Shown here piece by piece: positions 3,731 to 61,493 of a DNA stretch of 64,000 bases. The stretch lies in assembly GCA_900318195.1 (NCBI GenBank), contig ONJR01000144.1:62001-126000 (forward strand), written 5' to 3'. The position numbers and the translations under genes were made by a program. Below the pieces are notes generated by a model that did no database searches, was not told the DNA's origin, and worked only from the letters and a program-made list of their open reading frames with translations. Position 1 is the stretch's first letter. Each line of letters opens with the position of its first letter. Origin of the DNA: an uncultured Planctomycetota bacterium. GTDB taxonomy: Bacteria; Planctomycetota; Planctomycetia; Pirellulales; Thermoguttaceae.

Positions 3731-6700
3731 ATGATTTCACTGATTCCCTGCTATAGCCTAGAAGATTTTTCACTCTATCGTAAAGCGTCTGACGTCGACG
3801 AGATTTTCTCAGCCTGGTCGGCGTTATACCATCCGGCGCTGGTCGCTCATTTTAACGACGCGCCACGTTGGGAAGCGGCGGGAAGCCCTTCTTCGGGTCA
3901 AACGCGCCGCCTCGTCGTTGTGCCGCCTTGCGCTGAGTACCTGATTTCGCACAAATGGATCAAAGAAGCGGAAGAAGGCGGCGCCGTCGTTATACGGCAC
4001 ATCGCAGATCGAGACGAGATTCTGAAAGAGGCGTTTCAAAAGCTAAATATTGACCCGCGCCCAGAGTCGGCGCGTACATCAGACCTCGCGTCCAACAACT
4101 CATTCTACCACTACGACGACGAAGCCGAATCGTTTCTCGCCGTAGGTCTGTGCTGTCTAATGGAAGAACTGTTGACGCGCAAACTTCGCTACATGAGCAA
4201 TCTTGACCAAGTAAGCTTCAATTCGCGAATTGTTGAAGCGGCGCGCGCACACATGGTCGGTAACGCTGACGAAAGAGAAAAAGGGCTCCAAAAGGCGTTT
4301 GATCTACTAACTCAATCCAAAGAATACTTCTTCCCAACTGCGACGAAATTCATTAATCTTGTATGGACTCAAATAGAAGACTTAGAATCGGCGCTCCCCA
4401 ATCTCCTCAGAGAAAGAAGGCTTCGACGTGAACAAACTAATTTGGTTATCTCCGTCCCAACGTTAAAAGCGTGCGTTCAGAATTATCCCGATACGCTCAA
4501 GCTCCTACGCGATGAAATTCGCGAACATCGCGTCGAACTAATCGGTGGCGACGAATGGGAAGCCCCTTTGTATCTCTTTTCGCCGACGGAAATCGTCGAC
4601 GCGCTTCGCGCCGGTCAAAGATATTACAACTCAACGCTAGGAACCGTTCCGTCTGTTTTCGGGCGACAAGAAGCTGGTTACGCGCAAATCTTACCACAAT
4701 ACCTTTGCGGAGTCGGTTACAAGGGCGCGCTCTCTCGCACAGGCGACGGTTGGTCTCTGCTCGAAAAGAACACCGACCGCTCCCAGATACGTTGGCAGGG
4801 ACGCGACGGTTCTATCATTACGACAATATGTAAAAAACCGCTTGACGCGAGTAGCTCGGAAGAAATTCTGCAAATGCCAGATAGGATAGGCAACTCGTAC
4901 TACTCGGACTCCGCTTCCGCCGTCGTTTTTGAACACCGACCGGGTAAGGAATCACGTTGGCTACGCGACCTACTTCGTATGGATCGGTATTCTCCTACGC
5001 TTGGTAAATTTTATTCGATCTCGGAATACTTACGCGTTACGGAAGGGAGCGGCGACAAAGAAAAATTTGTCAAAGACGCCTTCAAGACAAATTTCCTCAC
5101 ACGCTCAGCCAAACGTTCACGTGCAAACCCCGTTTCGCTTTGGCCCCTTCGTCGCCGTCTCACTCTTGCCGCTTCGGAAATTCAGGCGTTGGAAGCGATC
5201 GTACGTTCGATTGTCTACAAGGCGAAAATCTCCTGTTCCGCGATAGAATCAAGCAGATTGGAGTGGCTTCAACGATGTGAGAATCTCGCTGAACGCGCAA
5301 AGGCGCTTCGTGATGAACTTGACGCCCAATTATTCCCCGCAGTTCCGGACGAGAGACAAGACTCGGTCGATCTCTTTGCTAAGTCGAATGAGCTGGAAGC
5401 GGAACGCATTGAACTCACAAGCGCGACGGAACGCCTTCTGGACGCGTTACGAGATGAAATCCCTACGCCCAATCTAGAGTCAGGCGAGGACGTCGCTTGG
5501 CAAAATCCAGGTTTTCTCGTCTTGAACCCCACGTCAACTGATCACGACGTCGTTTGGGAAACGCGCTTCAACGGCGAACAGGACGCAACTGTTTTAGTGG
5601 AACGACTCAGAGAACTAGTCGCTTCCGTACGCGAACGCCTACAAAAATTACTTCCGAATGCGCGCCTACGCGTCTTTTCGACGCAAGATACCGACTTGAG
5701 ACGCTATGTTCTTACGCTACCGGCCTACGCTTACTGTTGGCTACCGAAGATTGACGAGTTAGAATACAACTTTATTATGCGTCCTCTTTTCAACCCTTCA
5801 GGACGCGAATCCTCACTATGGTCTACAACGCCGCCCAAACGACAAACGTTGACCGATCGCGAGAAAAAAAAGGGAGGATTCTTCTCGTCGCTCGTCTTCA
5901 AAGTACGCAACGAAAGCGAACGCCTCCACCCTGACCAATCAGAAGAGACGCAATCCTATCTTGCAGAATATGTCGAGGAACGTCTCTCTGCTACGAGCGT
6001 CGACAAGTATTATCGCCTTCGTAACGAATACGTCGAACTTAGAATTGACGCTGTAACCGGCGCCGTTAAGAGACTACAGACCGTCAATTCGGGCACGTCT
6101 TTTGGAGGAGGCGTACTCCACCAGCCAACGCTCGGCAATCGGTTTGCTTGGGACGTTGCGCTAAGATTGCCTGAGCGCCTACTCAAAGAAGATCATCGCA
6201 CGAAAGACAATTCAGGATACGGTTACACGACTTCAGCGGCGGATGAAATTAACATTCTTTCTGCGGTTGGAGGTCTGGGCGTACTCCGCGTCCGTGGCAG
6301 ACTCGTCGCTCCCAATGGCGAACTCGCGGCGACTTTTACCGAAACAATCTCGTTGCGCAGACGCTCGCGCGTGATCGACGTCGATCTAGAAATCGCGTCT
6401 CAAATAGAACCTGATTCTGCGCCGTGGAATTCTTATTACGCGTGTCGCTTTGCATGGAAGGACGCGCTTGCTCAATTAAGCGGCGGAGTCGGTTCGACGT
6501 TAATAGGCACGTCGCGTGATTATTTTCAAGCGCCGGAAGCCATAGATATAAGGAGCGAAGAGGGTATCGGCATTACAATTCTTTCAGCAGGTCTACCCTA
6601 TTTTCTCAAGACAAGCGCTACGCGTGTGGACGCCGTGCTCGCGCCTAAAGGAGAAGGAAGTCAAAGGTTCCACTTCGGCGTTGGTATAGACCTGGAAGAT

Positions 6701-7108
6701 CCGCAGTCGACCGCGCTGTCCTACGCCGACGCCGTACCAATTCTATTGTCAAAAGTTCCGGCATTACGCCGACCCGCGCACAGGCTATTTTCTGTTGACG
6801 CCGCCAACATATCGATAGTCAGCGTGGTTCCTATTATTGGCGCGCACGAAACTTCACAGTCTAAACAACGCCGCGCGGCGCGTGTGAACGATGATCTCAG
6901 CGGCGTTAGAATTACGCTACTCGAAACGCACAGCGCGTCGACGACGGCTCAACTCAAATGCGCGACGCCAATTGTGCGAATACAGACGATTGCGTTCGAC
7001 GAAACGCCAAGCTCGGAAGAGGTAATCCAAAAGAATTCGATAACTGTCGAGCTAGAATTTCGACCCAGGCAAATGCGAATTCTCGACCTTTACTTTGAAC
7101 GTCCGTAA
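3731..7108 (+). CDS. large GH38-like (alpha-mannosidase-fold) protein with probable loss of the catalytic nucleophile
   Basis: This 1,125-residue protein has no signal peptide. Its middle (about residues 185-330) resembles the N-terminal barrel of GH38 mannosidases and related deacetylases, including the conserved stretch before PQYLCGVGY. The place where GH38 has its nucleophile (P-D-x-F-G) reads P-S-V-F-G here, with Ser308 at bases 4652-4654. The N-terminal HxHxD zinc motif is also not seen. Residues about 470-560 are helical and charged. The C-terminal half (from about 740) looks like the beta-sandwich of GH38 proteins. Similar large proteins occur in other planctomycetes as far as I recall. 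It may be a binding protein or use different chemistry. It follows btaA closely. Confidence 0.6.
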   Translation: MISLIPCYSLEDFSLYRKASDVDEIFSAWSALYHPALVAHFNDAPRWEAAGSPSSGQTRRLVVVPPCAEYLISHKWIKEAEEGGAVVIRHIADRDEILKEAFQKLNIDPRPESARTSDLASNNSFYHYDDEAESFLAVGLCCLMEELLTRKLRYMSNLDQVSFNSRIVEAARAHMVGNADEREKGLQKAFDLLTQSKEYFFPTATKFINLVWTQIEDLESALPNLLRERRLRREQTNLVISVPTLKACVQNYPDTLKLLRDEIREHRVELIGGDEWEAPLYLFSPTEIVDALRAGQRYYNSTLGTVPSVFGRQEAGYAQILPQYLCGVGYKGALSRTGDGWSLLEKNTDRSQIRWQGRDGSIITTICKKPLDASSSEEILQMPDRIGNSYYSDSASAVVFEHRPGKESRWLRDLLRMDRYSPTLGKFYSISEYLRVTEGSGDKEKFVKDAFKTNFLTRSAKRSRANPVSLWPLRRRLTLAASEIQALEAIVRSIVYKAKISCSAIESSRLEWLQRCENLAERAKALRDELDAQLFPAVPDERQDSVDLFAKSNELEAERIELTSATERLLDALRDEIPTPNLESGEDVAWQNPGFLVLNPTSTDHDVVWETRFNGEQDATVLVERLRELVASVRERLQKLLPNARLRVFSTQDTDLRRYVLTLPAYAYCWLPKIDELEYNFIMRPLFNPSGRESSLWSTTPPKRQTLTDREKKKGGFFSSLVFKVRNESERLHPDQSEETQSYLAEYVEERLSATSVDKYYRLRNEYVELRIDAVTGAVKRLQTVNSGTSFGGGVLHQPTLGNRFAWDVALRLPERLLKEDHRTKDNSGYGYTTSAADEINILSAVGGLGVLRVRGRLVAPNGELAATFTETISLRRRSRVIDVDLEIASQIEPDSAPWNSYYACRFAWKDALAQLSGGVGSTLIGTSRDYFQAPEAIDIRSEEGIGITILSAGLPYFLKTSATRVDAVLAPKGEGSQRFHFGVGIDLEDPQSTALSYADAVPILLSKVPALRRPAHRLFSVDAANISIVSVVPIIGAHETSQSKQRRAARVNDDLSGVRITLLETHSASTTAQLKCATPIVRIQTIAFDETPSSEEVIQKNSITVELEFRPRQMRILDLYFERP

Positions 7109-7128: not shown

Positions 7129-9060
7129 TTAAAGGACGCCAACCGCGCACTTCACGCGTTCCGTCGCAATGACGGCGTCGTATTTCGCGTTTGCCAGCGC
7201 GCTTTTCGCCGCCGTCCTCATTGTCGCGGCGTCGAGAACTTCCGTGTGATTAAGAACGCCTTCCTGAAATCCACGCGTAACAACTCGATAATTCTCTTCC
7301 GCCTGCTCTGCGGCGATCAGCGCGACATTAAGACGTTCGCGCGCTTCGTTCTCAGCAAGACACGCATGGCGCACCTGTAATCGAATCAGCGATTCCGTCT
7401 CTTCACGCGCTCGCGCAATGGCCATAGCGCTCTCCTGCGCCGCGTTTTGTCGAGCGCGACTTGTACCGCCGTCGAAAGGCGTCCAGGTAACGCCAACAGC
7501 CGCCGTGGCGTTTGAATTATCGCGTAAATGGCTGTTTTGGAAATACGAGTACGCGCCTATTGCGGCTACTTGCGGCAACACGTCGGCGCGCGCTACTTTC
7601 GCCTGCGCCTGCATTGCGCGCGCTTCTGCATTAAGCGCAACGAGCTCGTTACGCGTACGCAACGCCGTTTCTGTTAGCGTTGCAATATTGGCGAGCGGCT
7701 CTCCTAACTCGACGTCGGCAAGTCTTACAGGCGCGTCCAGCGGTCGCCATAATAAACGATTGTATGCGGCTTCTGCAAGAGACAAAGCGTTAGCGACTCT
7801 GAGCTCTAACTGTTGCGCTTCGGAACGCGCAACTTGGGCGGCTAGTTTGACGTTCTTCGTTAGCATTCCCACATTGTACATACGCTCAGCGTCGTTCAAA
7901 TGCTCTTGCGCGGCGACAACGGCTTCTTGCGCCACCAGATGCAATTGACGCGCGCGTAACACGAGAAAGTACGCCTCCGTCGTTTCCAGCTTGACGCGTT
8001 GTTCGTCAACGGCAATACCAGCGGAAACGGCTTGTGTCAGCGCAGAAGCGGATTCTTCTAGCGCGCGAATTCGTCCGCCAAGATAAATCGGAATCGCAAC
8101 CGAAGTCGTCGACGTAACAAAATTGCGATCAGTAAGAGGCGTTCCAACCTGCAGATTCGTCGGTATATCCGCGAGTAACGGCTCTAACAAAGTTACTACG
8201 GCAGGCGGTAAGGCGCTTGAAACGCCGTTCAGTGCGCTGGAAACGTCAATGTCTGAAACCGTTGTCGGCTTATTAAGTAGACCCACATAGGTATTCGTCG
8301 TATTAACCTTGGGATTACGTAACGACGTTGCCGCACGATTAGCGGCCCGAGCGGCTTCTCTCTTATGTGCGAGAGCGCTTTGCGTACGGCTCTGAGAAAG
8401 AGCGATACTTATCGCCATCTCCAAGGATTCCACGGCAACGTCGTCCACAGAACCAAGGTCGTCGTTTTCATTCGGTAGAACCAAATCGGGAGCGTCGTCC
8501 GACCCCGACCGTGCTTGTGAACGAGAAGACGCTTCGGCAGGCTGCTCGAACGTTGTTCCTGCACGGTTCACAGGAACGGGGATCGACGTTGAAACAATTC
8601 GTTCTGCGCTTGTCTGTACAATACGTTTCCGCGCGGGATTCGCGTCCTGAACCTTTAAACGATTGGCGCCGGCGAGCGTTCCAGGTTTGACGTCGTCAAC
8701 GCCATAAAAACTCTGACGACGCGGCGGCGATACGTTGAGTTTCTCAGACAGACCGAACGACGACGAGTTTCTAGCAACAACCGCATTCGAGCGACTAGTA
8801 ACGCCAACCGAGTCCTCGATACGCATAGGGGAACCATTATTGTGAGGCGAGGCAGCGACACGCTGCACTGCCGCTTGATTCTCGGGCAAATACGCAGACG
8901 AACGCACATTTGTCTGTTGCGCAAGCGACTCGCCGACGCAACCAAACGTAATTCCGATCGCCATAATCCATCCGATAGTAGCGCTACTTCGGGTATAAAG
9001 TTCACCCCTGCACGCTTCAATATCTCTGTTGCGGACGTCTCTGTGTATCGCGTTTCTCAT
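7129..9060 (-). CDS. TolC-family outer-membrane efflux protein
   Basis: About 643 residues from the ATG at 9060; an in-frame ATG at 9099 adds 13 residues and has a GGAG four bases upstream, so the start is uncertain. A hydrophobic export segment (IGWIMAIGITFG) ends at ESLAQQ. A low-complexity linker of about 160 residues follows, then two outer-membrane-efflux repeats of long helices rich in Ala, Glu and Gln. The first begins near VESLEMAISIALSQS, the second holds VTWTPFDGGTSRARQNAA and ends in the ITHTEVLDAATM-like segment. TolC proteins form trimeric channels paired with an inner-membrane pump and adaptor; neither partner is adjacent. It is last in the minus-strand cytochrome and glycosidase cluster, with a 226-bp gap before it, so it may have its own promoter. 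Confidence 0.85.
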   Translation of the reverse strand: MRNAIHRDVRNRDIEACRGELYTRSSATIGWIMAIGITFGCVGESLAQQTNVRSSAYLPENQAAVQRVAASPHNNGSPMRIEDSVGVTSRSNAVVARNSSSFGLSEKLNVSPPRRQSFYGVDDVKPGTLAGANRLKVQDANPARKRIVQTSAERIVSTSIPVPVNRAGTTFEQPAEASSRSQARSGSDDAPDLVLPNENDDLGSVDDVAVESLEMAISIALSQSRTQSALAHKREAARAANRAATSLRNPKVNTTNTYVGLLNKPTTVSDIDVSSALNGVSSALPPAVVTLLEPLLADIPTNLQVGTPLTDRNFVTSTTSVAIPIYLGGRIRALEESASALTQAVSAGIAVDEQRVKLETTEAYFLVLRARQLHLVAQEAVVAAQEHLNDAERMYNVGMLTKNVKLAAQVARSEAQQLELRVANALSLAEAAYNRLLWRPLDAPVRLADVELGEPLANIATLTETALRTRNELVALNAEARAMQAQAKVARADVLPQVAAIGAYSYFQNSHLRDNSNATAAVGVTWTPFDGGTSRARQNAAQESAMAIARAREETESLIRLQVRHACLAENEARERLNVALIAAEQAEENYRVVTRGFQEGVLNHTEVLDAATMRTAAKSALANAKYDAVIATERVKCAVGVL

Positions 9061-9286
9061 AGTCAACTTCCCACTTCTGTATCGGCAATTTGCACACATT
9101 CAGCTCCAATGGCGCTAAAAGTCCACCATCTTTGCAAGCTAGCCATAAACACTGCTTTCGATACAATCGGCAAGTCTGAGCTCTACACTAAAAACAATTT
9201 TACCGAAAAAGAGAATTATGCTTAAAACAGCATATATATCGATTATGCGGACAGTCTACAACTGACAGAACGACTGCGTTTCGAGA

Positions 9287-10855
9287 CTATCGTGCAACTT
9301 CTGCTTGAATGGTTGGAGTTCCGGAGGCATACTTCAACAACTTTCTTTCGGAGACTCTCACAGGCTCGACAGTAAATTCGGGAATGTTGTAGGAACGCTT
9401 AGAGCCAAGTGTTTCGCATGGATCTTTCTGGGGCAACATAACAGGCTTGGAAAATTTTCCTGTCGTTTCGTCAAAATGAGTAAAATACAGACGCGTATAG
9501 GAGCCGTCGTCACGACGCGAACTGAAAACCATCCATTTTCCAGACGAACTCCAGGAATGGTAGCTATCCGGCTCGGTCGGTGAGTTGATCTCGTCAAGGC
9601 GTCGCGTTTCACCGGACGCTACGTCTAGGCTCCATATATCAGAATCCCGATACCAAATTGGAAAACAGCCGTAACGCGTTAAGGTAAAAATTAACTGTTT
9701 TCCATCGGGCGAAAGGCGTGGAAAGAGTGCGCTCTGCTCGCGTCCAGCCGCGTCGAAGACAAGTTCAGGCGCGCTAAATTGACCAGTTTCTTCGTCATAC
9801 TCCACGCGTTTGAGGTCGTAACGGATGTTTTTAACGAGGTACATTGCCTCGGTGGAGCGCGCCTCTGAATCGGTTCTTAGCGTCTTGAACCCTGGATTCT
9901 TCGCAGAACAATAATACAGTGTTTTACCATCCTGCGACCAACTAGGAAAACACTCAAGCGTCTCGTCACCCGGTGGAACGATTGGAGTCATAAGGTTTCG
10001 CTCGACGTCGTACAAATAGAGGTCGCCGAACGAGTCAAGCACGTCGATCCGATCAAGAGATTTCGTATGAAAAACCTGCTCCGTTTTATTCGATACGAAC
10101 GCAACGTGCTTTGAATTCGGGCGCCAGGCGGCATAACTGCACCCGCCGCTAAGTCCTACCGCCTTAAGCTCGCGCTTGGAAACCTCCGTCCCGTCTTGCA
10201 CAAAAATCGTTCCGCCGTCCACCAGTCTCAGATGAAAAAAGAAATTGTCTGTATGACGATCTTGAAATGTGTGGCAGTTGACACAAGTTCGTTCATTTAC
10301 AAGCCGCGCGCGAAAGAGCGCGCGTTCGTTAAACGATTCGAGGTCGCGCGTCCAGAGCGCAAGATCGGAAAAGTATTCGTAACCCGGACCAACCAATCTG
10401 TACGAAAGGTAACGATCAATCTCATCTGCCGATATTGTTATTGAAAAATCACGATACTTAAACCAGCCCGAAGAGTCTTTCGCAAAAACGGAAAACCGTA
10501 CGCTCCTACCAATATTACCACGAACAATTGTCTTCCAGACCTTCGTGGAAAACCGAACTTCAGAACCTTTGAAGAAAGCAAGAAGTTCGCCCTGATCGTT
10601 ATACGCGCCTACCGCGATTTGATCCGCTCTCTCGCAAACGTCGAAATTTAAAGGAGCAAGATTCGGAGGAATGGTTGTGTCGGTATAATCCGGGTAAATA
10701 CGCGGAGACTGATCCAATGTTTCAAACTCTTTCGGCGCCGCTCCCGATCCACGACCGAGGAGAAAGAACGCTATCGCAACAGCTAAGACGCCAAGAGTCG
10801 CAATTCCAACTGTCCTAAGGTTCAGTTTGCCAATTTCACCAGAACGCCGCAACAT
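9287..10855 (-). CDS. membrane-anchored haem-c TolB/PD40-like beta-propeller protein (copy 1)
   Basis: About 522 residues from ATG 10855 (a GTG at 10867 is also open). One N-terminal membrane segment lies at about residues 17-34. A conserved N-terminal stretch IYPDYTDTTIPPN precedes an about 100-residue beta domain. A single c-type haem site, CVNCH (about residues 191-195), follows. The rest is a TolB/PD40-like beta-propeller with repeats such as AAWRPNSKHVAF, FPSWSQDGKTLYY, FPRLSPDGKQLIF and HSWSSSGKWMVF. A full paralogue lies at 59838-61421 with the same order of parts. It sits 86 bp below the HZS-alpha-like dihaem gene on the same strand. Probable role is periplasmic redox or binding; the substrate is unknown. 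Confidence 0.72.
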   Translation of the reverse strand: MLRRSGEIGKLNLRTVGIATLGVLAVAIAFFLLGRGSGAAPKEFETLDQSPRIYPDYTDTTIPPNLAPLNFDVCERADQIAVGAYNDQGELLAFFKGSEVRFSTKVWKTIVRGNIGRSVRFSVFAKDSSGWFKYRDFSITISADEIDRYLSYRLVGPGYEYFSDLALWTRDLESFNERALFRARLVNERTCVNCHTFQDRHTDNFFFHLRLVDGGTIFVQDGTEVSKRELKAVGLSGGCSYAAWRPNSKHVAFVSNKTEQVFHTKSLDRIDVLDSFGDLYLYDVERNLMTPIVPPGDETLECFPSWSQDGKTLYYCSAKNPGFKTLRTDSEARSTEAMYLVKNIRYDLKRVEYDEETGQFSAPELVFDAAGREQSALFPRLSPDGKQLIFTLTRYGCFPIWYRDSDIWSLDVASGETRRLDEINSPTEPDSYHSWSSSGKWMVFSSRRDDGSYTRLYFTHFDETTGKFSKPVMLPQKDPCETLGSKRSYNIPEFTVEPVRVSERKLLKYASGTPTIQAEVAR

Positions 10856-10952
10856 ACTCAAATTCACCCCATTAACAGTTCCATAAAGCTACGAAAAGTT
10901 CGCTCCGCGAAACGACAAGCGTAACGTCTGTTATACGCTGTCTCTCACGTTC

Positions 10953-13900
10953 TCACGGCGAATATTCTTGACACGACTCCACGTCGAGCAACGGCCACAC
11001 GAGCTCGCCGCGCATTTGTCCCTCTTCGTCTTGAAACGCGCCAAGACGTAAAGCATTGGCGTCGAGCCAAAGAATAAAGGCGCCGCGATCCTCGTCTGAA
11101 ACGACGTCTTTGTGCGTTTCGTCGAACAGAATCTTACCCAATCGAGACTCATAAGCTCCCACGCGTCCCGGTCGCGAGCGCGATCCGCCATGAACGCCGG
11201 TAGTCGTTAAGCCGCCGCGCATCGAACCGCTATAATAGTAGACGTAGGGACGCAAATCTTCGTGATCCATCTTGGTGGGACCAGCATTCCTTTCAACATG
11301 ACACGTTACACAACGCGATTCGGCGATCGGTTTAATCAGGCGATAAAAATTAATCGGTTCAACCGGACCACACTCGGGTTCGAGCTTTGAGGGCGCGCGT
11401 TGAAAAGCTAACGGCTGTCCGTCAGGAGATATATTCGGGACGCTTGCCGTCGTTTCCTCATGACATCCCGTACAAACGAGTTTTTCGCCTGGATGAACAT
11501 ACGCAACGGATCGCATTGTTTGAACAGCCATATTATTCTCGTCGAGCGCCTGAAAAATGAGCTGTTTACCATAGGGAACCTCAAAGAAAGCGCTCCCGTC
11601 CGCTTCAACTGGCACAGTTCCGAGCGGAATTCGAGGCGTGTTTTCCGTTGCGTAGCCGATGAAAGGTTTATCCATCCACGGATTCGATTTAGGAATTGCT
11701 TGCAAAACGCGCAGTCGTTTGATTGGTCGATCCTCAGGAAACGGTCTATCATGAAGATTAACGTTGACCACGCCTACCGTAGCAACCTTATTGTGATCGG
11801 CATAATCTTCTCCTTGCGCCGTCTGCTGTGGTACAACTGGCGGTTTCGCGCGCGGACGAAGCGGGATCGGTTCAGTTAACCGCAGTCGCGGATCATATCC
11901 GATCGGCAGGATTTCACGCTCGCAAAGCAACTCTTCATTACCAAACCGATCGAGAAGCACGAGATCTTCCCAACTATTGCAGAGGTATAAATCCTCACTC
12001 AACGCCCAAGGCGCGCCGTATCGATACTGGCTACGATCATAAGTTTCCGATTCTGGAAAAGCCTCATATGGCGTAATGCGTCGAATCTGGCTCATATGAT
12101 TGTCATTTGGAACTCGTAAATCAAGCAGACAGAGCGAACCAAAGGACTCGCCATGATGCGGCGCCGCTGTAAAGACGTATTTATGCGAACCGGGTATTGG
12201 ACGAAACTGCATTTGCGTCATTGGTAGACCCGAAGGCGCGTCCTCGCAACGTCCAAAGCGATGATCGCCATGCGCGCAATCTTCGAATGTGTCCCAGGGG
12301 TATGGGTAGTTGCCTTGCGGCGAGCGAGGGTTACGTCCGTCGGGCGCGCATGTCCAGAAGGTGGAGCCAAGACAATTCTCGCGATCGGTGTAGTCCCAAC
12401 GCGAATAAACTAACGCGCCGTTATTATCGACCACGGGTCGCCATTCGCTCGTTTCGAAATAGCTTATCGGATAGATATCCGAACCGTCCGCCTTCATTGA
12501 GTGCATAACGGCAGTAGTAACGCGTAACGACGCGTCCTCGCCGAAGCAACGGATAAAGCCTCCACGCCGTTCGGAACAAAAGACGAGTCGTCCCGACGGC
12601 AACTCGCAGACGTCAAAGTCATTGTATGAGCCGTCGGTCAATTGCTCGATTTCATCGCTGTCCACACGTGTCTTAAAGATACTCCAGGTCGTGTCAGGGT
12701 TCCAAACCCAGCGGTGTTCCTGCGAATTACACCATGAAAAATAGATCGTTTTACCGTCATAGCTCAATTCTGGTTTGTAAAAAGAGCCGGTATCGAGCCG
12801 GCGTCCTGCTAATCGCTTATGATTCGCAGTTGCAACGACAGTTTTACCTGCAATCAAGTCTTTAATTTGCGGATCGCGACTTTTCCAATCCTCCAGGGCA
12901 AAGATACCGCCGCCATGAATTGTATTGAACCCATAAACTTGCGTCGACATATGCCCGCCAATTCTATCGGTATTGAATTTATTAGTCAATCGCGACCCGG
13001 CATAGCATGCGCGAGCAAGGAACATAATACGATCAAGATCGTCCAATTCGCTCTGTTGGAACATAATGAGCCGCCGAAAAGCGCACGCGATAAAGTAATC
13101 CGCCACACGCCGACGGTCGTCTGAGAAATAGGACTGATCGCGCTTAATCTCATCGGAAACTCGCTTGTCGAATCGTTCAAATTCATTTTTCAGCGCCGTA
13201 AAGACTTCTGAATCGTCGTCGAAATTTGCGCCGTCTAACATTGCGCGCACGCGTCGCACGACGACTTGAACAGGAGTCTTTTCCGTTTCGGTGTAGACGA
13301 GTGAATTAGGATCGTACGCTTGCTCCGCAGCGCCGCGCGGTGGTTGACGTTCGCCGCTTATTTCCCTTTCCAGCTCGAGAAATCTTTCTCCCCAGTTTGC
13401 ATAGACGCCATCGCGAAAATCACCGACTGAGAAAAGATTGATCGCAAGTTCGTTCATACGAGCGCCAAGTATTTTTTTATCGACTCCCTGGATAGGGACG
13501 TCCTTACGCGGCTTTTCACCGGGTTTAACAGTCGGCTCTATTCCTCCAGTCGGAAAAAGATGATCGAGGGATGAACTAACGCTTGTTTCTATCCTATTGT
13601 CGTATTTTTCGGCTAACCTACCCCATACTGGAATCGAAAGAAGATCGAAAGCAGACAGTTTTTTCAAATCGTCCAAGAGCGAGTAACGAGTAAAATCATC
13701 TGGGTCGCGCGGAGCAACGAAATACTTTGGCGTTTGAGCAAAACGATCTCCCGAAAGCGGCGTTTGATTCGGAATCGAACGTTCCAGAGCCTGCTCGAAT
13801 GCAATTCGCTTCGTCTTAGAATCAACAAAGTCGTCGAAGTCGAATCGAACGAGGAGAATCGTATTGTCGTCATAATCGCAAGGCTTAAAGAGTCGATCGT

Positions 13901-14579
13901 TCTGAGTCAGATCGCGAACGCCCTCGGAAATTCGCAATTCGTCGACCACGCCGTTACAAAAAATGGAACGGTCGACAAGGGAGCCAATAGCAAATTTGGC
14001 GTCGTCAGGGACAACCGAATCTTCGAGCGCAAGCGCGCCCCGACCAACGCATTGTCCATCAACATATAGCCTCGCTTCGTCTACGTCCATGACAAGACCA
14101 ACACGGTGAATCTGACCGTCGACAAGATCAAAATCGCTTATAATCGTCTGCTGTGCTCGATTGCCTGGAACGTACAGCGCTAATCGCCCCGTGCCGACAA
14201 ACGTATACAACTCCCAGTGTCGAGACGAGGTCTTCTCTTCATTTGCAAGGAAGATATTGAAAACATCGCGCGAGTCGACGCGCGCTGTTAATTCAACTGT
14301 AAAAGGACGCGACGTCAGTAACTGATCGCTGGGCATGATAAAGGAAACGCGTTTTGGCGCAAACGCTGTTTTGAGCTCCGGTGAAAAGGATTCCACTATC
14401 ATATCGTGAGAAAAGAAATCCGGTATGTCCACGGCGCTGTCAGTTGCGGCAATTCGATTGATCGTGGGCGGCAACTGTCCGATAGCGGTATGACAAACGC
14501 TTAAAATAAATGTCAATGCGCCGACCGCCGCGCTCAAAGGCGACAAACCGATAGGCGCACACATACCCGCGCGTTTCAT
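10953..14579 (-). CDS. secreted LamG plus hydrazine-synthase-alpha-like dihaem c-type beta-propeller protein
   Basis: About 1,208 residues. I choose ATG 14579 because GGAG lies 9 nt upstream and a signal peptide (hydrophobic run to CHTAIGQ) follows. A LamG-like domain comes first (MDVDEARLYVDGQCVG, then VVDELRISEG). A long helical part is next, then a propeller region with PELSYDGKTIYFSW and GRLVFCSERRGG. Two haem-c motifs close it: CTGCH (bases 11460-11474) and CVTCH (11298-11312). Order and motifs resemble the HZS-alpha middle-domain family, which is known beyond anammox bacteria; no other hydrazine synthase subunit is present, so it is not read as hydrazine synthase. It starts just past the stop of the GH32-like gene, in one operon. 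Confidence 0.7.
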   Translation of the reverse strand: MKRAGMCAPIGLSPLSAAVGALTFILSVCHTAIGQLPPTINRIAATDSAVDIPDFFSHDMIVESFSPELKTAFAPKRVSFIMPSDQLLTSRPFTVELTARVDSRDVFNIFLANEEKTSSRHWELYTFVGTGRLALYVPGNRAQQTIISDFDLVDGQIHRVGLVMDVDEARLYVDGQCVGRGALALEDSVVPDDAKFAIGSLVDRSIFCNGVVDELRISEGVRDLTQNDRLFKPCDYDDNTILLVRFDFDDFVDSKTKRIAFEQALERSIPNQTPLSGDRFAQTPKYFVAPRDPDDFTRYSLLDDLKKLSAFDLLSIPVWGRLAEKYDNRIETSVSSSLDHLFPTGGIEPTVKPGEKPRKDVPIQGVDKKILGARMNELAINLFSVGDFRDGVYANWGERFLELEREISGERQPPRGAAEQAYDPNSLVYTETEKTPVQVVVRRVRAMLDGANFDDDSEVFTALKNEFERFDKRVSDEIKRDQSYFSDDRRRVADYFIACAFRRLIMFQQSELDDLDRIMFLARACYAGSRLTNKFNTDRIGGHMSTQVYGFNTIHGGGIFALEDWKSRDPQIKDLIAGKTVVATANHKRLAGRRLDTGSFYKPELSYDGKTIYFSWCNSQEHRWVWNPDTTWSIFKTRVDSDEIEQLTDGSYNDFDVCELPSGRLVFCSERRGGFIRCFGEDASLRVTTAVMHSMKADGSDIYPISYFETSEWRPVVDNNGALVYSRWDYTDRENCLGSTFWTCAPDGRNPRSPQGNYPYPWDTFEDCAHGDHRFGRCEDAPSGLPMTQMQFRPIPGSHKYVFTAAPHHGESFGSLCLLDLRVPNDNHMSQIRRITPYEAFPESETYDRSQYRYGAPWALSEDLYLCNSWEDLVLLDRFGNEELLCEREILPIGYDPRLRLTEPIPLRPRAKPPVVPQQTAQGEDYADHNKVATVGVVNVNLHDRPFPEDRPIKRLRVLQAIPKSNPWMDKPFIGYATENTPRIPLGTVPVEADGSAFFEVPYGKQLIFQALDENNMAVQTMRSVAYVHPGEKLVCTGCHEETTASVPNISPDGQPLAFQRAPSKLEPECGPVEPINFYRLIKPIAESRCVTCHVERNAGPTKMDHEDLRPYVYYYSGSMRGGLTTTGVHGGSRSRPGRVGAYESRLGKILFDETHKDVVSDEDRGAFILWLDANALRLGAFQDEEGQMRGELVWPLLDVESCQEYSP

Positions 14580-14616
14580 TTGATCATTCTCCATAGCAAA
14601 GTCGAATTCTCGTCTA

Positions 14617-16755
14617 TTAGCGAATAATCGGAGCAACCGATAATCGCTCTATTTTCAGTTTAGCGCCAGCCTCGTTAGAGAACTTTAGCGCGCGAAGCTT
14701 ATTAACGTCGTTTTCATCCCAATCGTCGCGCGACGCGTACGTCGCCGTCCGCTCGCCGTTCACGCAAAGGTCCACAATATGATTAGGAGCGACACAATCT
14801 AATTCTATATGTCCGCTAGAAAAATCAACTCGATCAATCTTGACGTCGTTAAGGTAAACCGCTCGCTCGGAAAAAGCGACGACGATGAATCGATCTTCCG
14901 CATACGCTATTCTTAAATTTCTCATCCTGTCAATTTCATTGGGATCAAAAGAAGCGGAAAGTTGCAGACGAAAGCGTTGTGGAATCGCAATATCTAAGTT
15001 GCCGTCGGAAATCTTGCCCTCGTAGCGTGTCTCAGCTCCTGTTCTGGGAATCATCTCGGGGACAAACTTCTCGCCCAGCGTACCGTTTTCCATTCTGATC
15101 AACTCATGAAAAACAGCGCTACCGCCGAATCCTCGTTCACGCGTCCAACCGCAGATTATACGTCGACTCTCGCCAAAAGGAGAGGTCTTTGGAACGTTCA
15201 CCATTCCATTCATTAGAATATTCGGAGTCAAAGGGGCTTCCCAAGGACCTTGGGGAGATTTCGACATGAGATAATACCCATTAAGATGATTCGCTATCAG
15301 ATAGTAATCGTCCCCCCACTGGAACATATCGGGACATTCCGGTTCGCCGTTCATGTGAGCATAGAGGGGTTCGAGAACTTGCCAGTTCTTGAGATCGTCG
15401 GAAACAGCGCGCGCCCAACACCCTCGACCGCGATAACTAGCCGTAATCAGCATATAAAACCGACCGTCCTCAGGAGACTGAAATACGAACGGATCGCGAA
15501 CGCTCGACGAATAGCCCTCTGGAAGTAAAAACAGTGGATTAGGATCGCGTTTTTCAAAGTGCAAACCGTCTTCGCTTGTCGCAACGCCAAGAAGTCCGAA
15601 AACGTTCTTCTTCGTCCCGTCCGGCAGAGTATACTCTACGGCGCGATTCGCGTAAAAAGCGTAATACAAACCTTCGTGAAACAATACCGAACCAGTGCAA
15701 ATCGAACCCTCGTTTTGATCGTCTATCGCAAGTACAAAGGGACGATGCGTCCAATGGACAAGATCTTTCGACGTCGCTTGTATCCACTGATGCGCGCCAA
15801 GCCCGTTCTTGGCGCCATGACGATTCTTATCGAGCAAATACATGAAATGAAAAACGCCGTCGGCGTAAAATGGCATACAATCCCCAACCCCATAACGATT
15901 CGGTGGGGTCCAGTACTGCATCGACTCCGGAACGACGCGTTCCGTCCTTTCCCGTGCGTCAATTCGATCAGCGCCTCCGGACAGCAGGGTGATTTCATCA
16001 TTCGACAGCGCCCGATCCCAGATCGCAACATAATCGATTTCACCTACAAATCCGGTACGCAAAGAGTCGTGGGCAGAAGAATCATATTGCGCGCCGATGA
16101 CAAAAGGAATCTCGTTCGTTTTAAGATTACCAAGCATGAAATCTTCGTCACAACATCTACCATCAAGAAAGAATTCCATTTTCGCACCGTTAATCCGACA
16201 GAACGCAACTCGCCATGCGTCGCGTTCGTCAGGATTACGCGTCTCTGTACGCGGCGCCAACGTTTGGAGAATGGAACGATTGCCAGTCGAACCAACTTCT
16301 GCGCCAAAGGAATCCGCGAAGAAAAAAAGATTGAAGGCGAGCTGATCGTGCCCACCGTGTTTTGAAAAGAGCGGCGCCGAGTCCCAAAGGGTCGAGCTGG
16401 GTTTAACGCGTATGCCAAAAGTTGCTTCACGTCCCGTCAAGGCGCGCAAACGCTCGTTCACCGACTCAGTAACAGCAATAGCGCCCCCGCGCTGGAAGCA
16501 CGCAACGAGACCGTCGCCTCCCTGCGCGGCAGAGTCGGCGCGCTCACGCTCGGGCAGCGACACGCCCAATTCAACGTCGCCAGTTGTCAGAAGGCGGTCG
16601 TCTACGCCGCCGAAATCGGTAAAAAACAACGCGTCTCGCAGTAGTTTGCGAGGTTCTGACGCGCGCGTGACGGTAACGCCTAGCATTACCGCACACAGCA
16701 GGCAGAACAGAAACGTTCGCTTAACAAACAAACGCTTTTCTCTCACCAACGTCAT
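14617..16755 (-). CDS. secreted LamG plus GH32-like glycoside hydrolase (levanase/fructosidase type)
   Basis: About 712 residues from ATG 16755, chosen because AGGAGGG lies 7 nt upstream; the longer frame begins with TTG. A signal peptide ends near residue 32. A LamG-type jelly-roll fills residues about 100-250. The five-blade propeller has the three GH32 acidic sites: Asp292 in GDCMPFY (where WMNDPNG is usual), the RDP motif at 420-422 and the acid/base Glu473 in ECPDMFQ. A C-terminal beta-sandwich follows. Family knowledge: GH32 enzymes cleave fructans or sucrose-like bonds. The divergent first motif leaves substrate open. It begins 38 bp after the GH43 stop and leads into the HZS-like gene. 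Confidence 0.75.
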   Translation of the reverse strand: MTLVREKRLFVKRTFLFCLLCAVMLGVTVTRASEPRKLLRDALFFTDFGGVDDRLLTTGDVELGVSLPERERADSAAQGGDGLVACFQRGGAIAVTESVNERLRALTGREATFGIRVKPSSTLWDSAPLFSKHGGHDQLAFNLFFFADSFGAEVGSTGNRSILQTLAPRTETRNPDERDAWRVAFCRINGAKMEFFLDGRCCDEDFMLGNLKTNEIPFVIGAQYDSSAHDSLRTGFVGEIDYVAIWDRALSNDEITLLSGGADRIDARERTERVVPESMQYWTPPNRYGVGDCMPFYADGVFHFMYLLDKNRHGAKNGLGAHQWIQATSKDLVHWTHRPFVLAIDDQNEGSICTGSVLFHEGLYYAFYANRAVEYTLPDGTKKNVFGLLGVATSEDGLHFEKRDPNPLFLLPEGYSSSVRDPFVFQSPEDGRFYMLITASYRGRGCWARAVSDDLKNWQVLEPLYAHMNGEPECPDMFQWGDDYYLIANHLNGYYLMSKSPQGPWEAPLTPNILMNGMVNVPKTSPFGESRRIICGWTRERGFGGSAVFHELIRMENGTLGEKFVPEMIPRTGAETRYEGKISDGNLDIAIPQRFRLQLSASFDPNEIDRMRNLRIAYAEDRFIVVAFSERAVYLNDVKIDRVDFSSGHIELDCVAPNHIVDLCVNGERTATYASRDDWDENDVNKLRALKFSNEAGAKLKIERLSVAPIIR

Positions 16756-16792
16756 CTCTATACCCTCCTGCAATTCCAAATCTCATGACGAC

Positions 16793-17863
16793 CTAGTTCG
16801 CCGACTTGACGATTTCCGCAAGATTCACTGGGGTCGAAACGCCTTCCAAGGTCGGTTCGATCGGTGGAATCGAACCGTCGGGAGCAAAGGAAAAACGATC
16901 TAGACACGTTTCGCGTCCCCAACCGCCAGGCGCCTGCGGCTGGATAATTCGGTGGTAGAAAACGTAATTGTCGCCGTTCGGCAAAAAGAGGAAAGAATGG
17001 TGCCCGGGTCCCAAAATTCCCTTCTCCGGACGCTTTGATAGGATGATGGGATTCTCCTGGGGACTGACAAACGGTCCGAGCGGAGAATCAGAAGTCGCTA
17101 CCCACACCTGATAATTGGGATCGCGAGTATCGTTCTTGGACCACGTCAGGTAATATCGATCGTTACGGTAAAAGACGTAGGTTCCCTCGAAGAAATTCGA
17201 CGGCGTAATGTCCTTAACCGTGTCGCGCTTGATTTTGGTCATACTGTCGTCAAGCTCAGCGACGCAAAGGTATGAATTTCCCCAGTACAGGTAATTCTTA
17301 CCTGTTTGAGGATCGCAAAAGACGAAAGGATCAATCTCAACTCCTGGACGCCCCTTGGGATGCAAGTCGTGTCCGACAATCTCGCCGCAATCCACAAACG
17401 GACCAACCGGATCGTCGCCGGTCGCAACGCCTATTTTCTCATTGGCGCAGTAGTAAAAAAAGTAACGGAAGCTCCCGGTCTGAGTCTCTTTTTCGATAAT
17501 AGACGGCGCCCAAAACCGTTGCGTCTCCCAATGAATATCTTTGGCTGCGAGAGCCAGACCTTCACGGCGCCAATCGACTAGATTATCGCTTGAATAAACG
17601 ACAAAACCTTTGTTTGACGACGTCGGATAAACATATGCGCGCCCGGTCTTCTTCGAAAGAAGGACTTCCGGATCGGCGTTAGCGCCCGGAAATATTGGAT
17701 TGTGATACTTTCGACTCAATTCATTTGACTCGTCGTTGAACACGGCGTCGCACGCTACTGACAGGGAAGCAAGGTTCACGCTTACTCCGACGCCAATAAG
17801 CGCCTTCAATGCGTCGCGACGAGAAGGAAGTTTCGACTGTTCAGAATTTAAAGGTGTGTTCAT
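16793..17863 (-). CDS. Tat-exported GH43-like glycoside hydrolase, probable lipoprotein
   Basis: 356 residues. The N-terminus has a twin-arginine signal (SRRDALKALIG, Arg15-Arg16) ending in a lipobox-like SVAC with Cys38. The five-blade GH43 propeller shows its three acids: Asp64 (GANADPEV, base), Asp178 (EIDPFVF, pKa modulator) and Glu226 (FFEGTYV, acid). GH43 enzymes act on arabinans and xylans. It is the first gene of a minus-strand group leading to the GH32-like and HZS-like genes. The many short insertions are normal for the family. The Tat signal suggests folding in the cytoplasm before export. Confidence 0.8.
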   Translation of the reverse strand: MNTPLNSEQSKLPSRRDALKALIGVGVSVNLASLSVACDAVFNDESNELSRKYHNPIFPGANADPEVLLSKKTGRAYVYPTSSNKGFVVYSSDNLVDWRREGLALAAKDIHWETQRFWAPSIIEKETQTGSFRYFFYYCANEKIGVATGDDPVGPFVDCGEIVGHDLHPKGRPGVEIDPFVFCDPQTGKNYLYWGNSYLCVAELDDSMTKIKRDTVKDITPSNFFEGTYVFYRNDRYYLTWSKNDTRDPNYQVWVATSDSPLGPFVSPQENPIILSKRPEKGILGPGHHSFLFLPNGDNYVFYHRIIQPQAPGGWGRETCLDRFSFAPDGSIPPIEPTLEGVSTPVNLAEIVKSAN

Positions 17864-18059: not shown

Positions 18060-18524
18060 ATGAATGATTCGCAGGAAGAAATTATAAGGGAATTTCGCGA
18101 ACGATGTTCTCAAACTGGTATGAAGGCAACGGCGCCTCGTCTAGCCGTCTACCGGTTTTTGAGGAATAAACGCGAGCATCCTGTAGTGGATCGCGTTTGG
18201 GAAGCCGTAAGGGAAGAATTGCCGACAATCTCCAGAGAGAGCGTATATCGCATACTCAACGATTTTGTCGCGCATGGCGTTTTCGCTATGTTAGATCGCT
18301 CCGACGTAGTTGCGAGATACGATTCTAACCCTGAAAGGCACGACCACTTTTTTTGCACGCGTTGCGGTCGAGCGTTCGATTTCGAGATTCAGCAGTTGCC
18401 AACGATAATTGCTCAGGTAGCGGGCGGACTCGGCAAAATAGAACACGTGGAAGCGCGCGTGCAGGGCGTTTGCAAAGATTGTTTGAATAACGAACGGATC
18501 AATGACTCTGCAGACTTCGGTTGA
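18060..18524 (+). CDS. Fur-family metalloregulator, PerR-like
   Basis: 154 residues, the usual length for the family. The N-terminal winged helix includes TAPRLAVYRFL and the recognition region SRESVYRILNDFV (about 58-70). The metal-binding stretch HDHFFCTRCG (94-103) is typical. Two CxxC pairs, Cys99/Cys102 and Cys138/Cys141, would form the structural zinc site. Position just before reverse rubrerythrin favours a peroxide-sensing PerR over an iron-sensing Fur, but the key Asp/Asn residue was not assigned. A good promoter and an inverted repeat lie directly upstream. Confidence 0.85.
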   Translation: MNDSQEEIIREFRERCSQTGMKATAPRLAVYRFLRNKREHPVVDRVWEAVREELPTISRESVYRILNDFVAHGVFAMLDRSDVVARYDSNPERHDHFFCTRCGRAFDFEIQQLPTIIAQVAGGLGKIEHVEARVQGVCKDCLNNERINDSADFG

Positions 18525-59837: not shown

Positions 59838-61421
59838 TTACTGCAATTTGTCGACGTTCTTTGTCTCGTTCGAGTCGCCCCTCGCCGCTCGATATAGTTC
59901 GTGCGAATCGACTTTCAGCGATTCTATCGTCAACTCTGGGACATTGTACGATTTGAATCGATATAGATTGTGTCGGGGATCGCGTTGCGGCATAACGAAC
60001 GGTTTCGACGCGCGACCGTTTTCATCTACGTGAGCAAAATAGAGACGCGTAAACAGTCCGTCTTCACGCCGCGAACTAAAGACAAGCCATCGTCCAGTAG
60101 ACGACCACGTGTGATAGCTATCGGAGTCGTCGCTATCGAGTTCGTCCCAACGCCGCTCCTCGCCCGTACGCAAATCCTTAAGGTAGAGATCAGCCTCAGG
60201 ACGCCAGATTGGAAAGGTCCCCCCTTCGGCACATGTATACGCTAAAAATGCGCCGTCCGGCGAAACGCGTGGAAAAAGCGCCGTCCTTCCCTGAGCGACC
60301 GCGCCAACGACAACTTGCGGCTCGCCAAGCGTATTCGTCTTTTCGTCAAAAGAGCGACTCATAATATCGTATCGTAATTCAGAAGCGCTTTTTGCCATTT
60401 CCTCCGTCAGTGTATGAAGGGCTTTTGCGTCACCGGCAATCGACTCAGCAAGGTAAATCTGTTCCAGGAGCTCGCGCAATTTTTCCGACTTAACTTCAGC
60501 GACACAGTAAAATAAAGTTGTCCCGTCGGGCGACCAACTCGGAAAGGTTTCGAGCAAACAGGGCGTGCGTTCCACAACGGCAAGTTCATTCTTAGCCGCG
60601 TCAAAGAGAACTAGGTCAGAAAATGCGTCGTAGACCTCAAGCTTTTGACTGGAAAGCGAGTGGAAGATTTGACGCGTCTGATTGGTTGAAAACGCGACCA
60701 CGCTACCAGTGGGACGCCATGCGGGATAAGAGCATGAAATTCCGGCGCTCTTGACTTTGCCGCTCACTTTAGTCGCAGTCTCGCCGTTTACAAAAATCGT
60801 ACCGCCATATGCAGGATCGTCTGTACGTCTGAAGTGAAACAGGAAATTGTCCGTCTTGCGATCCTGAAAAGAATGGCAGTTTATACAAGGAGACGACGAC
60901 ACAAACCGATTGTCGAAAAAGACGCGTTCCTCAAAACTTTCGAGCGATCTTTGCGCGAGCGCTATGCGGTGCGCGTAATCATAGCCGGGTTCAATTAAGC
61001 GATATGCGACAAACGCGTCAATTTTATCGGCAGACGTCTCATTCTCGAACGTGCGGTACTTCGTCCATTCGCCGTCTCGCTTGACAAAGACGTCAACGGT
61101 AAAGGACGCGCCCGTATTCACGGTGAGCAATTCGCGCCATTTTGTCTCTGGAATCAGAACGTCGCGTCCAGTCAGAACGAATTCGCACCCTTTCTTTCCC
61201 GCAAATCGCGTCGCATACGCCTCGCCTTCCTCAAGAATACGGAAATTCATAGGCGCAATATTGGGCGGAACGGTTGTTTCGACATAATCCGGATATATGA
61301 CCGGCAAAGAGTCAACCGCCTTGAACTCCTTCGGAACCGAACCATAGTTTGAACACCCGCACACGCCCCAAACTAGGCAAAGCGCCACAACAACGACTCG
61401 AATACTCGCTCGATAATTCAT
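59838..61421 (-). CDS. haem-c TolB/PD40-like beta-propeller lipoprotein (copy 2)
   Basis: 527 residues from ATG 61421 (MNYRASIRVV). Signal peptide ends in a lipobox-like GVCGCSN. The same order of parts as the protein at 9287-10855: YPDYVETTVPPN, a beta domain, CINCH (179-183), and propeller repeats AAWRPTGSVVAF-like, FPSWSPDGTTLFY, FPRVSPDGAFLAYT, HTWSSTGRWLVF. Both proteins share the end VMPQRDPRHNLYRFKSYNVPEL / VMLPQKDPCETLGSKRSYNIPEF. It is 21 bp below the DUF6057 gene, so probably co-transcribed. Confidence 0.75.
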   Translation of the reverse strand: MNYRASIRVVVVALCLVWGVCGCSNYGSVPKEFKAVDSLPVIYPDYVETTVPPNIAPMNFRILEEGEAYATRFAGKKGCEFVLTGRDVLIPETKWRELLTVNTGASFTVDVFVKRDGEWTKYRTFENETSADKIDAFVAYRLIEPGYDYAHRIALAQRSLESFEERVFFDNRFVSSSPCINCHSFQDRKTDNFLFHFRRTDDPAYGGTIFVNGETATKVSGKVKSAGISCSYPAWRPTGSVVAFSTNQTRQIFHSLSSQKLEVYDAFSDLVLFDAAKNELAVVERTPCLLETFPSWSPDGTTLFYCVAEVKSEKLRELLEQIYLAESIAGDAKALHTLTEEMAKSASELRYDIMSRSFDEKTNTLGEPQVVVGAVAQGRTALFPRVSPDGAFLAYTCAEGGTFPIWRPEADLYLKDLRTGEERRWDELDSDDSDSYHTWSSTGRWLVFSSRREDGLFTRLYFAHVDENGRASKPFVMPQRDPRHNLYRFKSYNVPELTIESLKVDSHELYRAARGDSNETKNVDKLQ

Positions 61422-61493
61422 CTTTGGTCTCAATATTATTCCGGTAAAATTAGTTTCTACGCCTGACCGCAAGTCAATCGATTATTTCTCGCG

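Follow-up and report, generated by a model that had tools for sequence, protein, structure and literature searches.

To our knowledge, the synthesis of hydrazine is the sole function known for the HZS_alpha family, and the puzzle addressed here is the presence of about 20 c-type HZS-like proteins per genome in anaerobic gut planctomycetes without haem-copper oxidases. Non-anammox homologues of the alpha subunit of hydrazine synthase (HZS) are known in Planctomycetota and Desulfobacterota; their hosts include Thermogutta terrifontis, and the key HZS residues are absent in them (PMC12758564). Planctomycete-specific cytochromes (PSCyt) with carbohydrate-binding modules have been described near sulfatase and glycosidase genes (PMC5615132), and in a survey of CAZymes across the phylum the top coding frequency for a single genome was that of a ruminant-gut member of the Thermoguttaceae (PMC11131199). 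Here we describe a locus at which the gene for a dihaem HZS_alpha-domain protein is tied to two glycosidase genes within one genus, a concrete and testable substrate lead for the family and a finding that bears on the origin of hydrazine synthase. The best explanation overall, to which we assign a probability of roughly 55%, is a glycan-utilisation unit of one gut Thermoguttaceae genus, in which the dihaem product would act as a glycan-docked electron-transfer protein.

The DNA analysed, referred to below as the window, is a stretch of 64,000 nucleotides from contig C158 of a 4.18-Mb MAG in 283 contigs, assigned to the gut Thermoguttaceae (Planctomycetota). Relatives named in GTDB belong to the Thermoguttaceae or to other uncultured Planctomycetota, and many of them were sampled from rumen, rectum or caecum. 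The initial annotation of the window had described four co-directional, exported genes between positions 9287 and 17863 as one operon with three CxxCH motifs. Judging from our analysis, the four ORFs lie on the minus strand at those positions, separated by gaps of 37, about 37 and 97 bp when the best ATG starts (16755, 14579 and 10855) are used; all four products carry export signals by inspection, and the CxxCH motifs do number three, of which the dihaem protein has two and a propeller one. All three motifs are invariant in alignments of the orthologues, one row in the wrong frame (L156:7670-9451, alignment A2) having been left out, and the sole further CxxCH gene of the window encodes a second propeller (59838–61472). 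The same-strand run extends past the interval into a TolC-type gene, and on its other side a FUR-family regulator gene (18060–18524, plus strand; PF01475, 9e-21) lies divergent from the GH43 gene, as it also does in L130, L135 and L138. Matches to promoters and terminators were 1.3 to 1.6 sd above shuffle means in number and were not counted as evidence.

Orthologues of the GH43, GH32-like and HZS-like proteins were sought within the genus across 20 genomes, one of them that of the window, and those of the propeller in 60 relatives. The GH43, GH32-like and dihaem genes are adjacent, on one strand and in the same order in G005, G006, G007, G014 and G018, and also in G002 and G008, whose contigs both end within the GH43 gene; in G016 the order is kept, with one CBM4/9-bearing gene inserted. 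Counted by species, the unit is kept in eight others of the genus, once with that insertion, or nine with the window, and the dihaem orthologue adjoins the GH32-like gene in seven of these eight and lies one gene away in the last. Because the unit is kept in nine species, the link between the glycosidases and the dihaem protein goes beyond a chance feature of a single genome. The gene 3′ of the dihaem gene varies between species, being a flippase gene in G006 and G016, a GH5 gene in G008, a gene of similar size to that GH5 in G014, a convergent three-haem paralogue in G018 and, in the window alone among the species compared, the propeller. The unit therefore ends at the dihaem gene, and we consider it highly probable that it spans positions 10953–17863, with its boundary in the 97-bp gap before the propeller.

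The main rival to our explanation is that history alone has placed the three genes side by side: the dihaem protein would have an unrelated periplasmic role, and the linkage would reflect inertia in a CAZyme-dense genome. It takes this place because the CAZyme frequency of ruminant-gut Thermoguttaceae is very high (PMC11131199), and in genomes so rich in CAZymes, genes are likelier to become neighbours by accident. In agreement with this rival, a tree built from 22 dihaem orthologues requires two changes: linkage was gained basally in the genus and later lost once, the loss being confined to one clade of hindgut samples that retains all of the genes; in G010, G011, G015 and G017, the GH43/GH32-like pair and the dihaem orthologue are on separate contigs. 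Dihaem orthologues from other genera (53–62% identity) lack a GH43 or GH32-like neighbour and sit by Sel1, MFS or esterase genes or by no co-directional gene, which likewise suits a historical linkage. Since the hindgut clade has split the unit and the orthologues of other genera lack these neighbours, linkage is not required for function. However, adjacency and short gaps have been kept over nine species at about 67–74% protein identity while the flanks turned over, further CAZymes have been recruited around the unit (GH127 in G007, the CBM4/9 protein in G016 and GH5 in G008), and the dihaem protein itself bears a LamG domain, all of which argues against mere inertia and leads us to regard a purely historical linkage as unlikely.

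The propeller, which the initial annotation had placed in the same operon, did not follow the other three genes when gene order was compared among relatives: the order GH43/GH32-like/dihaem proved conserved, and the propeller was never found beside it. This PD40 propeller (9287–10855, minus strand, in an ORF reaching 10867; PF07676, 3.6e-18) has its single CxxCH, CVNCH, at 10271–10285, and in the alignment of its orthologues His212, His267 and His437 are likewise invariant. Its N-terminus forms a hydrophobic anchor, with a lipobox-like Cys in several orthologues (by eye), and a PDB sequence search with the protein gave no match. The orthologues (56–64%) lie behind a secreted protein of 513–581 aa that resembles an outer-membrane barrel and adjoin GH38 genes, with TolC between propeller and GH38 in four genomes; TolC has the same order as in the window in L148, L150, L151 and L153. 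In the window, the corresponding genes are those for a TolC-type outer-membrane efflux protein (7129–9099, minus strand; PF02321, 3.4e-41), which comes after the propeller here and in relatives, and for a GH38-like protein at the far end of the block (3731–7108, plus strand; PF01074, 4.5e-07), which has the same place in relatives, so that the order GH38/TolC/propeller over 3731–10867 matches theirs. No propeller orthologue stands beside a dihaem gene among the relatives, and the propeller was rejected as a member of the unit on synteny. The window is thus a junction of two blocks, the three-gene unit abutting the propeller/TolC/GH38 block at the 97-bp gap. A single operon of all four genes, with two cytochromes serving glycan breakdown, would fit the shared strand, the 97-bp gap and the lack of a strong terminator between genes 3 and 4, but it is very improbable given that the propeller lies elsewhere in every relative, travelling with TolC and GH38; the gap also holds a weak stem-T site, although such matches are common by chance. 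The second propeller of the window, which belongs to the same family, and others in relatives adjoin DUF6057 membrane proteins, which points away from glycan enzymes. Pairing of monohaem PD40 propellers with DUF6057-type proteins, twice in tandem, occurs at 59838–63800 of the window, at L158:2819-9359 and at L167:3926-11487.

The first gene of the unit encodes a GH43 glycosidase of 356 aa (16793–17863, minus strand; PF04616, 4.3e-56) with an export signal that combines a Tat-like SRRDALK motif and a lipobox-like LSVAC (by eye). Its nearest solved structure is 3qz4 (1.3e-69), its five-bladed GH43 domain contains the catalytic Asp, Asp and Glu expected of the family, and the motifs ADPE, EIDP and FFEG are kept in the orthologues. 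The second gene encodes a LamG-bearing GH32-like glycosidase (14617–16755, minus strand; PF00251, 2.6e-25; PF13385, 5.5e-11) with a Sec signal peptide (by eye); the ORF reaches 16779, and the ATG at 16755 is preceded by AGGAGGG. It matches GH32 enzymes among solved structures at 3e-14, and its assignment to GH32 is carried by the GH32N domain (PF00251, 90 bits), the nucleophile Asp and the RDP and EC motifs, with GDCMPF, RDP and EC kept in 22 sequences. Because the catalytic motifs are kept, both enzymes are predicted from sequence to be active on terminal pentose or fructose residues, which they should set free, and the GH127 gene adjoining the unit in G007 hints at arabinose-rich glycans as the target. 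The best relatives of the GH32-like protein outside the genus (L237 and L238) have no CxxCH gene alongside.

The third gene (10953–14579, minus strand, in an ORF extending to 14636) encodes a protein with a Sec signal peptide (by eye), in which a LamG domain, a helical domain and a propeller accompany an HZS-alpha-like dihaem part (PF18582, 1.8e-19; PF13385, 1.4e-13; PD40 weak). The LamG (ConA-like) domain comprises residues 103–241 (13914–14330, minus strand) and was recognised by PF13385 and by LamG/pentraxin folds in the PDB. Residues 387–525 (about 13062–13478), which lead from the LamG domain to the propeller, are confidently modelled as an all-helical domain (pLDDT mostly 85–96), for which Pfam gave no match. 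The HZS_alpha domain scores 70.5 bits against a Pfam cut-off of 26.6, and a weak sequence match to Kuenenia HZS alpha covers both haem sites, the first CxxCH (CTGCH, residues 1055–1059; 11460–11474, minus strand) aligning with haem alpha-I and the second (CVTCH, residues 1109–1113; 11298–11312, minus strand) with haem alpha-II. An AlphaFold model from 20 sequences reached a middling mean pLDDT of 62.7; its best PDB fold match is HZS alpha itself (5c2v; E 9e-17, probability 1.00), and because the TM score is 0.39 on the target, the domain arrangement is unsure.

The protein thus shares with anammox HZS alpha the HZS_alpha domain and two CxxCH motifs, both of which align with 5c2v. In HZS, the ligand of haem alpha-I is Tyr591, four residues past the His of CxxCH (PMC12607021). 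This position is Thr in the dihaem protein, and a Tyr was found there in none of the orthologues and paralogues listed; the NCBI equivalog for anammox HZS alpha gave 29 bits, short of its cut-off of 800, and no beta, gamma or fused genes occur at the locus. Hydrazine or anammox chemistry was rejected on these three counts, and without Tyr591 and the beta and gamma partner genes no hydrazine is expected from the protein. For the same reasons, it belongs among the non-anammox HZS_alpha-domain proteins already described (PMC12758564), combining a domain score over the cut-off and the 5c2v fold, albeit at low TM, with the lack of Tyr591. A haem enzyme of peroxidase- or NO-type chemistry, inherited from an ancestor of hydrazine synthase, could also have the HZS-alpha fold of the model, and a paralogue in the same genome does lie beside a beta-gamma/MauG-like protein, as reported for non-anammox homologues (PMC12758564). 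Nevertheless, such an enzyme in place of an electron carrier seems quite improbable at a locus with neither Tyr591 nor a beta-gamma gene, the more so as key HZS residues were found absent in such homologues by the published analysis (PMC12758564).

The presence of a gene for a CcsBA-type maturation protein makes it plausible that the dihaem protein and the propeller are c-type haem proteins; both have export signals and invariant CxxCH motifs. This CcsBA-type haem attachment protein (L221:3366-9272; G000:C50:13366-19272) is 1968 aa long in one frame, about twice the usual size of the fused form, and has a ResB-like N-terminus, a CcsA C-terminus and the motif WGxxWxWDPKE. Within the genus, a CcsA domain was found in 18 of 20 genomes. 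The contig of the window also encodes a protein of 683 aa in which a long linker joins the first half of CydA to a C-terminal CxxCH (L220:6684-8735; G000:C158:132684-134735), a possible link from quinol to cytochrome c. CydA-like matches occur in nine of the 20 genomes, none of which has COX1.

We infer that a glycan-docked electron-transfer protein is the most economical reading of the dihaem protein. The two exported hydrolases would cut back plant-glycan side chains that contain arabinose, xylose or fructose, the dihaem protein would dock via its LamG domain and propeller onto that glycan or its fragments, and the two covalently bound c haems would provide an electron-transfer site outside the cytoplasm, with no part in hydrazine chemistry. 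The substrates, the docking and the co-transcription of the unit are presumed in this scheme, and the electron-transfer role is put forward tentatively, its chances being somewhat short of even. The idea that glycan breakdown is coupled to extracytoplasmic redox chemistry thus survives as a possible but unproven property of the three-gene unit, from which synteny excludes the propeller. Coupling to sugar oxidation is regarded as unproven because there is no dehydrogenase in the block, the linkage has been lost once and paralogues lie beside non-glycan genes; the three-gene unit encodes no sugar dehydrogenase, donor, acceptor or redox partner.

The window genome encodes about 18 HZS_alpha proteins, and its paralogues carry NPCBM, F5/8-type, DUF7402, LamG or FGE-sulfatase-like domains. 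At least one HZS_alpha protein occurs in 44 of the 197 genomes of the order, mostly those of this family, and the maximum is at least 23 copies; the expansion, from 13 to at least 23 copies in many genomes, is concentrated in this one family of the Pirellulales. An FGE-sulfatase-type domain is seen at the C-terminus of HZS-alpha-like proteins in L174:8128-12609, L176:7847-11875 and L182:2060-3808, and at L177:7804-13125 an HZS-alpha-like paralogue adjoins a beta-gamma-like protein (NF052342, 77 bits). Near an HZS-like orthologue of another genus, L207:2-7702 holds five tandem ORFs of about 502 aa, the one tested being weakly GHL10-like. Of ten genes scanned next to the other HZS-alpha-like genes of the window genome, most were metabolic or housekeeping (among them a tRNA synthetase, glutamine synthetase, a PfkB kinase and abhydrolases), and these ten showed no general placement of HZS-alpha-like genes beside CAZymes. 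This would suit a purely historical linkage, and it makes the tie to glycosidases look specific to one orthologous group.

COX1 was found in no member of the genus. In the order, HZS_alpha proteins occur in 17 of the 22 genomes that lack COX1 and in 27 of the 175 others, one of the 22, absent by name from the listing, having been counted as without HZS_alpha. This anticorrelation is strong across the order but confounded by family, and the difference in copy number within the family is weak (p = 0.08). A wider reading, which we consider improbable, is that the HZS-alpha-like proteins of oxidase-less gut planctomycetes together make up a network for electrons outside the cytoplasm: each member would dock onto its own glycan via a LamG, NPCBM or F5/8-type domain, electrons would flow into or out of the quinone pool via the CydA-like/cytochrome c fusion, and the GH43-GH32-like-dihaem unit would be one glycan-specific branch.

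The initial annotation had held the coupling to be undescribed, which is true in part. Cytochromes bearing carbohydrate-binding modules near glycosidase genes have been published (PMC5615132), as have non-anammox HZS-alpha proteins (PMC12758564), whereas the conserved GH43/GH32-like/HZS-alpha-like unit is new, as is the finding of how large the HZS_alpha family of oxidase-less gut planctomycetes is and how varied its domains are; neither was found in the literature searched, which was covered in part. With Kuenenia HZS alpha (5c2v), the dihaem protein has in common the HZS_alpha middle domain, the propeller and two CxxCH motifs at matching positions; it differs in its added N-terminal LamG and helical domains and in standing without Tyr591 and without beta and gamma genes. 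The homologues reported previously (PMC12758564) are, like it, dihaem HZS_alpha proteins of anaerobes without the key HZS residues, but they were chosen by their linkage to beta-gamma genes, whereas the window protein has GH43 and GH32-like neighbours and a fused LamG domain. PSCyt (PMC5615132) resemble the window in that c-type proteins are fused to LamG-like domains with glycosidase or sulfatase genes nearby; membership of that group was rejected, no PSCyt or PSD Pfam match being obtained up to E 0.1, and PSCyt genes are found most often in MAGs from upper lake water, whereas the kind described here belongs to gut anaerobes without COX1. With the CAZyme gene clusters of Planctomycetota (PMC11131199), finally, the unit shares the co-location of secreted CAZymes, and it differs from them in that a haem protein is always part of it.
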